Part shown: positions 50,997 through 53,633 of the stretch, piece by piece
Layout: every line of letters begins with the position of its first letter
Position numbering within the stretch: the first letter of the stretch is position 1
Assembly (NCBI GenBank): GCA_020846775.1
Contig: JADLDG010000022.1
Coordinates: 1 to 64,000 of the forward strand
Length of the DNA: 64,000 nucleotides
From: Nitrospirota bacterium
Lineage (GTDB): Bacteria; Nitrospirota; 9FT-COMBO-42-15; HDB-SIOI813
Reading direction: 5' to 3'
Notes under the pieces: model-generated
What the model was told of the DNA's origin: nothing
Seen by the model: the letters and a program-made list of their open reading frames with translations, nothing else
The model's database searches: none
Made by a program: the position numbers and the translations under genes

Positions 50997-51161
50997 GGTA
51001 ATAAAAATAATGAGGTGATGTAATAACGACACACCTGTAAGGTTGACATTGCAAATATAATACACCATCAGGATGTCACTTGAATACCATAACCATTTGA
51101 TTACATTGATATATCTGTGTTGGTACCAAGTGGCATAAATTTTGCTCTAATACAGTTAATC

Positions 51162-52028
51162 ATGCGTTACCAAAGGACCATCAAAAATAGTGTTGAATGT
51201 AATGGAATAGGATTGCATTCGGGTGTTAAAGTATGCATGAGATTGCATCCTGCCCCGCCTGATACAGGAATCATATTTATCAGGAGTGATAAAAATGTGC
51301 GGATTGAAGCAACGGCTGACAAGGTAGTTTCAACTGAGTCCTCATCTACCCTCGGCATAAATGGTTATAACGTAGGGACAGTAGAACACCTCCTGGCTGC
51401 TGCAGCAGGTCTTAACATTGATAATATGCTTGTAGAGTTAAATGCCCCTGAAGTTCCAATTATGGATGGGAGTTCATCCCCATTAGTAGAACTTATTCTA
51501 AATAGCGGTATAGTTCAACAGGACAAGATCAGGACCCACATCAGGATTCTTGATACTATTGAGATAATAAGTGGAAACGGGTATATAAAAATAGAACCGT
51601 CACCTTTCCCTGTCATTACGTACCTGATGGATTTTGATCACCCGTTACTCAGGAAACAGGAGTTTTTATATCATCCTTCCATAGATGGTTTTATAAGTGA
51701 AATAGCGCCAGCCCGTACCTTTGCCTTTCAAAGGGATCTCCTGACCCTTAAGAAAAAAGGGCTGGGTAAGGGAGGATCACTTGAGAACGCTATCATTCTT
51801 GGTGAGCATGACATATTAAATAAAGAGGGTTTGAGATTTAAAGATGAGTTTATACGCCACAAGATACTTGATCTTATTGGTGATTTATCCCTTCTTTCAA
51901 GGTCATTTATCGGACATGTGACCGCCTGCCGTACCGGCCATACACTAAATACACGACTTGCCGCTGCCATACTTGCCAGCAATGAGAAATGGATTGAGGT
52001 AGGACACCGGGAAGTTGACGTTAATTGA
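51162..52028 (+). CDS. lpxC: UDP-3-O-acyl-N-acetylglucosamine deacetylase
   Basis: About 288 aa. Committed step of lipid A synthesis; zinc enzyme. Zinc ligands appear in GTVEHLLAA (His, about 77) and HKILDLIGDL (His and Asp, about 240). The general acid-base His lies in the C-terminal RTGHTLNTRL region. The ATG at 51162 (MRYQRTIKN) is the family-typical start; the open frame begins at GTG 51117. It shows that the cell has an LPS-type outer membrane. Confidence 0.94.
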   Translation: MRYQRTIKNSVECNGIGLHSGVKVCMRLHPAPPDTGIIFIRSDKNVRIEATADKVVSTESSSTLGINGYNVGTVEHLLAAAAGLNIDNMLVELNAPEVPIMDGSSSPLVELILNSGIVQQDKIRTHIRILDTIEIISGNGYIKIEPSPFPVITYLMDFDHPLLRKQEFLYHPSIDGFISEIAPARTFAFQRDLLTLKKKGLGKGGSLENAIILGEHDILNKEGLRFKDEFIRHKILDLIGDLSLLSRSFIGHVTACRTGHTLNTRLAAAILASNEKWIEVGHREVDVN

Positions 52029-52073: not shown

Positions 52074-52101
52074 GGGGGCTTTAAATATGTTTAAAGCCCC
52101 C
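52074..52101. terminator. Bidirectional terminator, lpxC / H1-like peptide gene
   Basis: A perfect 12-bp stem GGGGGCTTTAAA/TTTAAAGCCCCC with loop TATG. It is followed by ATTTATT on the plus strand and ATCTTTTTCT on the minus strand, so it serves convergent transcripts. Confidence 0.85.
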
Positions 52102-52128: not shown

Positions 52129-52248
52129 TTATTTCTTTTTGCTTGCCGTTTTCTTTGCTGCTGGTTTCTTTGCTGCTGGTTTCTTTGCTGCCGGCTTTTT
52201 TGCTGCTGCCTTCTTTTTAGCCGGAGCCTTTTTCTTTGCTGTTGCCAA
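52129..52248 (-). CDS. 39-residue histone-H1-like Lys/Ala/Pro repeat peptide
   Basis: Starts at TTG (52248) with a perfect AAAGGAGGTGAT site, and ends before the strong terminator. The product is MATAKKKAPAKKKAAAKKP, then PAAKK units, ending ASKKK: nearly half lysine, no acidic or aromatic residue. The 15-bp unit GCAGCAAAGAAACCA is repeated in tandem. Such tails resemble H1, AlgP and HU-tail sequences that bind DNA or RNA non-specifically. The ribosome site contains the TGA of the upstream HARE-HTH gene, so the two are translationally coupled. Short and easily missed by gene finders. Confidence 0.75.
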   Translation of the reverse strand: MATAKKKAPAKKKAAAKKPAAKKPAAKKPAAKKTASKKK

Positions 52249-52254
52249 TGAATA

Positions 52255-52773
52255 TCACCTCCTTTCGTGACCCTGTGTCTCTTCTCCTGAGAGGCTATAC
52301 GTGTTAGGAGAAACTCTCAGAAACCTCTTATCCCTGTTTAAAGATATTGACACAGACGTTATCGGTGTTTTACTCCTTATTTTTACCCCGCCTTCGAGTA
52401 GGCGCAGGTATATTTCCTTTGCATGAAGGGCCCTTCCTTCTTCCTTCAATAGGATATATGTGGCCTGGGGTATGCTGAGGCCAGAAAATTTGAATTGGTT
52501 TAATAACAGGTCTTTCGTCTCTTCAGACTGTTTTGATGAATTTTTTTCACTGTCTTCCGGCTGGGCCTGCTGTGATGCGCGGGACTTATTTCTTTCTACC
52601 TTATAAAGTGTTTCTGCTAATTCCAAGTATCTTTTTCCGGTTTTAATCTCATCATCCAGACGGTCACGTTTTTTCTGCAACTCTATCAGCCTGTTGCGAT
52701 ACATCATTATTCGCTGTTCGAGACCACCAAGGATATCTTCTAATTCTTCAATCAAACTTCCATCTTTAAGCAT
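52255..52773 (-). CDS. Coiled-coil protein with C-terminal HARE-HTH domain
   Basis: 172 aa. A long N-terminal coiled coil (about 5-65) is followed by a polar linker rich in Ser/Gln/Glu (66-90) and a winged helix at about 95-165 (SIPQATYILLKEEGRALHAKEIYLRL ... RDKRFLRVSPNTYSL). The winged helix matches the HARE-HTH fold found in RNA polymerase delta, ASXL proteins and some restriction enzymes. It is probably a dimeric DNA-binding protein. The ATG has no ribosome site; a TTGACA-N18-TATAGT promoter ends 8 nt before it. Confidence 0.72.
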   Translation of the reverse strand: MLKDGSLIEELEDILGGLEQRIMMYRNRLIELQKKRDRLDDEIKTGKRYLELAETLYKVERNKSRASQQAQPEDSEKNSSKQSEETKDLLLNQFKFSGLSIPQATYILLKEEGRALHAKEIYLRLLEGGVKIRSKTPITSVSISLNRDKRFLRVSPNTYSLSGEETQGHERR

Positions 52774-52781
52774 ACAATCAT

Positions 52782-52811
52782 ACTATACACGCTATAAAGA
52801 AGATTTGTCAA
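52782..52811 (-). promoter_or_regulatory. Promoter of the HARE-HTH / H1-like operon
   Basis: Minus strand: consensus TTGACA (52811-52806), 18 bp, TATAGT (52787-52782), then 8 nt to the ATG. It predicts an mRNA starting one or two bases before the ATG. Confidence 0.6.
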
Positions 52812-52966: not shown

Positions 52967-53227
52967 TTATACATCCTGGCAAAGAAACTCATTTACATAT
53001 GTATCAACTACTGGGAGTTTCTTTTCCGTTATAGCATTGGATATAAAATAATCCTTTCCGCATCTTCTAAGAGATATCTCGTTCCTTGAAACCATGTAGT
53101 CAATTGCAAGGAATATAAGGTTGTATGAAGTATCCAGGTTTTGTTCTAATTCAAAAAGGGTAATACTGCCGTTTTTGTCTATCAGGTTTTTGATCTGCCT
53201 TGATACATTGCTGAGAGGTTCTTTCAT
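52967..53227 (-). CDS. Small winged-helix-like protein
   Basis: 86 aa. The pattern VSRQIKNLIDKNGSITLFELEQNLDTS, then LAIDYMVSRNEISLRR, fits a winged helix-turn-helix. A good AAGGAG site lies six bases before the ATG. The 193 bp between it and the HARE-HTH gene is AT-rich with no visible gene. No partner or target is recognised. Confidence 0.6.
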   Translation of the reverse strand: MKEPLSNVSRQIKNLIDKNGSITLFELEQNLDTSYNLIFLAIDYMVSRNEISLRRCGKDYFISNAITEKKLPVVDTYVNEFLCQDV

Positions 53228-53558: not shown

Positions 53559-53633
53559 GGGCGATTGGCTCAGTGGTAGAGCGCTTCCTTCACACGGAAG
53601 AGGTCACAGGTTCGATACCTGTATCGCCCACCA
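53559..53633 (+). tRNA. tRNA-Val (anticodon CAC)
   Basis: 75 nt cloverleaf. Acceptor GGGCGAT/ATCGCCC; D-arm GCTC-AGTGGTA-GAGC; anticodon stem CTTCC/GGAAG with loop TTCACAC (anticodon CAC, reading GUG); T-arm ACAGG-TTCGATA-CCTGT; encoded CCA at the 3' end. All stems pair perfectly. Confidence 0.97.

Follow-up and report, generated by a model that had tools for sequence, protein, structure and literature searches.

On the minus strand of a stretch of Nitrospirota DNA, a gene for a HARE-HTH protein is followed by a very short reading frame rich in Lys, Ala and Pro, which raises the question of whether the second gene encodes a real protein and, if so, whether that protein belongs to its upstream neighbour or stands on its own. 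The initial annotation of this 64,000-nucleotide stretch, which as a whole we call the window, proposed a specifically HARE-based module, held together by translational coupling. Here we follow both genes through the Nitrospirota and ask which parts of this proposal hold.

Results

The gene pair and its putative expression signals

Both genes were confirmed where the initial annotation had placed them (Table 1). The upstream product matches PF05066 over residues 103–162 (E 3.8e-8; 34 bits against a Pfam cut-off of 25.9) and is thus a HARE-HTH protein, the only one in the window's genome, whose uncultured lineage has Nitrospirae MAGs such as RIFCSPLOW2_12_42_9 as its closest named relatives. 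Its AlphaFold model (mean pLDDT 82) predicts a single 67-residue helix, a disordered linker and a winged helix with a net charge of +6; across HARE proteins the median charge of the winged helix is +7 and the N-terminal helix is neutral. Upstream of the HARE gene, an 86-residue ORF on the minus strand (52967–53227) gives a weak Mga-HTH match.

Table 1 Features of the locus, with positions in the window
Feature	Position	Strand	Details
lpxC (UDP-3-O-acyl-GlcNAc deacetylase)	51117-52028	plus	PF03331, E 4.8e-96; convergent neighbour 3' of the microprotein gene
Terminator-like hairpin	52074-52101	minus	12 pairs and T-rich tail; can serve convergent lpxC too
Polybasic Lys/Ala/Pro microprotein	52129-52248	minus	TTG start; 39 aa; MATAKKKAPAKKKAAAKKPAAKKPAAKKPAAKKTASKKK
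Shine-Dalgarno of the microprotein, AAAGGAGGTGAT	52254-52265	minus	12/12 complement of 16S rRNA 3' end
HARE-HTH protein gene	52255-52773	minus	ATG start; 172 aa
Predicted domains of the HARE protein (AlphaFold)			N-terminal long coiled-coil-type helix, residues 3-69; disordered linker, ~70-96; C-terminal HARE winged helix, 97-162
Candidate promoter, TTGACA-18-TATAGT	52782-52811	minus	Promoter-like; 11/12 consensus bases

In the window the two genes share one frame and are separated by TGA alone. This stop codon (52257–52255) falls within AAAGGAGGTGAT (52265–52254), the Shine-Dalgarno sequence that lies 5 bases ahead of the TTG, and from so strong a ribosome site the microprotein is probably translated, and translated well. 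No ribosome site was seen before the HARE ATG (52771–52787 region, minus strand), and as the -10-like box ends ~9 bases ahead of this ATG, use of the candidate promoter would give a HARE mRNA with almost no leader. Weaker promoter-like sites, matching 9/12 bases, showed no excess (6 observed versus 5.4 in shuffles). The claim that the pair has a promoter and terminator of its own is consistent with the promoter-like site and with the hairpin, which is likewise found after the microprotein in relatives, although the hairpin is one that lpxC could share.

The reading frame is conserved with the HARE gene and selected as a peptide

Matches to the HARE protein came from 142 of 395 Nitrospirota genomes and 37 of 170 genera, counts that include two or three weak genome matches that are probably unrelated. 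We read 76 HARE-bearing genomes together with 80 stretches from a second collection, the species of which partly overlap; since one species may contribute several stretches, the counts that follow are not independent events. A Lys/Ala-rich ORF lay directly downstream of the HARE gene in all 76 genomes, so that the gene pair predicted by the initial annotation is indeed conserved, and the case that the annotation named as refuting its proposal, a HARE gene kept while the peptide frame is not, did not turn up. Three cases had been missed by the automatic ORF filter because of a contig end or a run of N inside the repeat; N runs within the microprotein repeat occur in the assemblies L052 and L056. 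The ORF was present in 153/153 downstream segments compared to 0/4,590 Markov surrogates, and the same criteria applied to 1,235 kb of surrounding sequence gave 2 matches, each a second copy of this ORF. The commonest form in Nitrospira-like genomes, MATKKAAKKKKK, is just 12 residues long and was found in 51 stretches, where it is encoded by 19 distinct DNAs whose variable sites (8/8) all fall at third codon positions. This pattern indicates that selection acts on a peptide, and judged by its sequence variation the microprotein is under selection at that level.

Several other accounts of the reading frame were considered and rejected. A low-complexity ORF arising by chance is ruled out by the background and surrogate counts given above. 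That the locus encodes a structured RNA and not a peptide finds no support in Rfam, a search of which returned a tRNA at 53559–53630 and one match far under cut-off, nothing else, and the variation follows the third codon position. A leader or attenuator peptide was ruled out because the microprotein gene is the last before the terminator. Readthrough of the HARE stop into a fused product was rejected as well: two near relatives add a TAA or TAG, and the relative frame of the two genes varies across the set, with 46, 73 and 40 occurrences of the three possibilities.

The microproteins of the HARE set range from 11 to 113 residues and keep a steady Lys and Ala content despite this variation in length, with a composition across 153 peptides of 52% Lys, 30% Ala, 8% Thr and 5% Pro. 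The one in the window consists of 17 Lys, 14 Ala, 4 Pro, 2 Thr and 1 Ser in addition to the initiator Met. Its start codon is also typical, since 141 of the 153 microproteins begin with TTG. More widely, TTG is used in nearly all HARE-bearing families and at most of the f3 and f19 loci seen, and ATG in most HARE-less families. Repeat number varies among close relatives, as it does in Chlamydia Hc2. A Lys/Ala/Pro-rich make-up with no folded domain makes the microprotein histone H1-like in a loose sense, as the initial annotation had described it, and weak matches to HC2 (PF07382) and NF038053 point the same way; at 17.1 bits against a cut-off of 40 the former falls short of Pfam membership, and the latter is far under its curated cut-off.

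The tight arrangement of the window is less widespread than the pair itself. The stop codon overlaps the Shine-Dalgarno sequence in five genomes of the window's family (G000, G001, G004, G007 and G008) and in a few other families, whereas another genome of the same family, G006, has 89 nt between the two genes and most relatives have an intergenic gap of 37 to 56 nt, with all three frames represented. Thus the gene pair is conserved and tight coupling is not. The placement of the stop codon inside the ribosome site, correct for the window, therefore does not extend to the pair in general, and a module held by coupling is not what most relatives have.

Linkage to lpxC

Wherever lpxC was within reach of a HARE stretch it was convergent with the pair (124/124), and we use it as a conserved landmark of the locus to which we assign no part in the proposed mechanism. 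In families f18, f38 and f42, lpxC is out of reach despite there being room for it, and the HARE-microprotein pair is intact. The pair thus moves together where lpxC is left behind, and the idea of a winged-helix protein with a detached H1-like tail remains a fair description of it. Tandem second copies of the microprotein occur in f18 and f11 (L247, 791/1846; L250, 676/1098; L252, 687/1068; also L264, L268, L271 and L275), and in two f18 stretches (L248 and L249) free-standing copies sit behind an unrelated gene.

The microprotein is retained without HARE, often behind a different winged-helix gene

A pattern query made of the ribosome site and the microprotein start also matched Nitrospiraceae-type genomes that had no HARE match. 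At nine such loci (G142, G148, G154, G188, G194, G249, G307, G335 and G353) the microprotein is intact and lpxC convergent, and HARE is either absent or left as out-of-frame or truncated fragments. Three of these genomes in which HARE has been lost or has decayed, G148, G188 and G249, are single contigs. Whole-genome profile searches found no HARE domain in eight of the nine; the ninth, G188, has one elsewhere, in a different frame of 300 residues. The microprotein is therefore independent of HARE and is kept after HARE loss, and the proposal of a specifically HARE module is not supported.

We also approached the question from the landmark, locating lpxC in 373 of the 395 genomes and examining its 3' side in 40 genomes that lack HARE. 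A microprotein convergent with lpxC was found in 23 of the 40, mostly 150 to 365 nt away, two of them recognised by eye after the filter had missed them; none of the 40 had one on lpxC's own strand. Examples, usually with an ATG start, are MAAKKKAAAKKKKK and MATKKAATKKKAAKKTAKKK. No microprotein was found 3' of lpxC in f6 (7 genomes), f29 (3), f8, f11, f25, one f20 genome and three f9 genomes, and the lack of such an ORF at lpxC in f6, f29, f8 and some of f9 indicates that the microprotein is not essential everywhere.

At most HARE-less loci, the gene upstream of the microprotein encodes a protein of ~181 residues in which an ArsR/MarR-type winged helix precedes an apparently degenerate nucleotidyltransferase-like (MNT) domain. 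In Foldseek its model (pLDDT 90) matched ArsR repressors as well as MntA (6m6u). The microprotein follows all 36 of the lpxC-linked winged-helix-MNT genes and is also present at four more for which lpxC is out of reach, and it follows none of eight paralogues located elsewhere. The winged-helix-MNT gene is absent from the HARE-bearing genomes listed (f1 and f9). The microprotein is thus the constant element behind either of two unrelated winged-helix genes, which replace one another upstream of it, and the module is not closed around HARE. Among related arrangements, L286–L290 carry a winged-helix-MNT gene followed by a HEPN-type gene, resembling MNT-HEPN pairs, and at the lpxC locus of f3 (L206 and L207) a HEPN-type gene sits between the winged-helix-MNT gene and the microprotein.

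Structural neighbours of the HARE winged helix

The solved structures nearest to the HARE winged helix are RNA polymerase delta, forkhead, Z-alpha, Rok and histone H1 globular domains. Delta ranked first in Foldseek (8x6g) and reached a VIA Z of 7.8 (2m4k), and the histone H1 globular domain 1ust gave a Z of 6.9. As all Z scores are below 8 and no Foldseek E value is below 0.001, we claim no fold membership beyond the winged helix, and the structural likenesses of the model may reflect only a common arrangement. The HARE alignment, compared with solved structures, returned coiled-coil matches only. Matches to the NCBIfam delta model are weak, occurring in 11 of 40 HARE members with a best E of 0.0064, and the architecture of delta was not found: the HARE winged helix follows a long helix and lies at the C-terminus, and no long acidic C-terminal tail is present.

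Discussion

We tentatively favour, at somewhat below even confidence, the view of the microprotein as an ancient polycation of the nucleoid type, whose winged-helix partners are interchangeable and which functions with them but outlives them. It would bind nucleic acid and act independently, much like a histone H1 tail set free, with the upstream gene of the operon supplying a winged-helix protein, either HARE-HTH, as in the window and related families, or, in other families, the ArsR-type winged helix with its MNT-like domain. The winged-helix protein might dimerise through its N-terminal helix, and its basic C-terminal domain could bind and perhaps bridge DNA like Rok or H-NS. With its strong ribosome site the microprotein may be made in larger amounts than its partner, and it could neutralise DNA charge, aid compaction and tune the DNA binding of the partner. 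Nucleic-acid binding is suggested by its charge and by analogy to the KPAA-type peptides of the AlgP tail, for which DNA binding in vitro is on record (PMC9239181); contact with the winged-helix protein and a nucleoid role are likewise put forward as inferences. A lone 12-residue peptide may be too weak a DNA binder for compaction, a shared promoter at a stable site could be the cause of the linkage, and that neither winged-helix partner is universal tells against taking a shared complex as established. A more far-reaching version, in which Nitrospirota chromatin is served by a split linker-histone-like module with a constant H1-type tail and an exchanged winged-helix subunit, seems to us on the doubtful side.

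The persistence of the microprotein when its partner is exchanged or lost can be read in other ways. If an old microprotein gene simply sits by lpxC and has its promoter in common with any gene that happens to precede it, without the two products ever meeting, then it is natural that microprotein and lpxC remain together and that translational coupling, where tight, is not conserved. We consider this unlikely, however, since the HARE-microprotein pair is kept away from lpxC in f18, f38 and f42, second-partner paralogues away from lpxC lack the microprotein, and each of the two partners is a winged-helix protein. Similarly, the microprotein might bind polyphosphate granules or rRNA and not DNA, its place beside winged-helix genes reflecting co-regulation. 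Short Lys/Ala chains bind any polyanion, AlgP with its KPAA-rich tail associates with polyphosphate granules, the spacing of which requires the tail (PMC9239181), and the microprotein outlives HARE and also occurs alone; but the recurrent pairing with two unrelated winged-helix proteins is left unexplained and no polyphosphate gene was seen beside the microprotein, and we regard this ligand as improbable to a like degree.

A polymerase link of the HARE protein is suggested solely by the resemblance of its modelled fold to RNA polymerase delta. On such an account the HARE domain would bind polymerase as Bacillus delta does, and the detached lysine-rich peptide would act on nucleic acid within or close to the enzyme. 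Delta is indeed the best solved-structure match and the NCBIfam delta matches, at E values of at least 0.0064, point in the same direction. However, the Z scores fall below 8, delta lacks the long N-terminal helix of the HARE protein, and HARE-less families have an ArsR-type winged helix as the partner. The disordered tail of delta has an acidic net charge of -47 (PMC7749165), opposite to that of the microprotein, which speaks against a straightforward counterpart of delta and leaves this account quite unlikely. A toxin-antitoxin pair, comprising a cationic toxic peptide and an upstream DNA-binding antitoxin or autorepressor, is brought to mind by the order of two small genes and by the second partner, whose MNT-like domain is as in MntA antitoxins. 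Such systems are mobile and patchy with a toxin gene that depends on its antitoxin; here, inheritance is at a single syntenic locus in most families, the microprotein persists after HARE loss and MNT paralogues precede a HEPN-type gene with no microprotein, and so we think this origin very improbable.

TTG-start genes of 11–20 codons with low-complexity products are easily overlooked by gene finders. Kept at one locus across the Nitrospirota, including nitrite-oxidising Nitrospira and Candidatus Manganitrophus, the microprotein would rank among the shortest bacterial proteins known to be deeply conserved, and would offer a natural test of the minimal sequence that an H1-type tail needs. The exchange and loss of its partners is a natural experiment of its own, through which the role of the tail by itself and the contribution of the winged-helix subunit can be addressed directly. 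In the open literature, searches on H1-like proteins in Nitrospirota and on lysine-rich microproteins returned nothing on this gene.

Among known systems, Chlamydia Hc2, the Burkholderia-type NF038053 proteins and the AlgP tail are, like the microprotein, Lys/Ala/Pro-rich and disordered, and change length by gain and loss of repeats; in contrast to them, the microprotein is a stand-alone product of as little as 11–12 residues that is tied to winged-helix genes and lpxC. The HARE protein shares with delta (RpoE) a HARE-type winged helix, for which delta is the best structural neighbour, whereas in delta the long N-terminal helix is missing and an acidic tail stands where a separate basic peptide is found here. 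Rok consists of an N-terminal helix, a linker and a C-terminal winged helix (PMC6936261), and the predicted layout of the HARE protein, with a coiled-coil-type N-terminal helix, a flexible linker and a C-terminal domain, resembles that of Rok and H-NS-like bridgers, although its winged helix is of the HARE family, a polybasic microprotein stands alongside and no sequence kinship is claimed. Eukaryotic linker histone H1 likewise combines a winged-helix domain with a Lys/Ala/Pro tail; here domain and tail are two bacterial proteins, for which we do not claim common descent with H1. Lys/Ala-rich H1-like proteins are familiar, and the open papers searched contained no account of one that spans a phylum, measures 11 to ~40 residues in most lineages and has exchangeable winged-helix partners.
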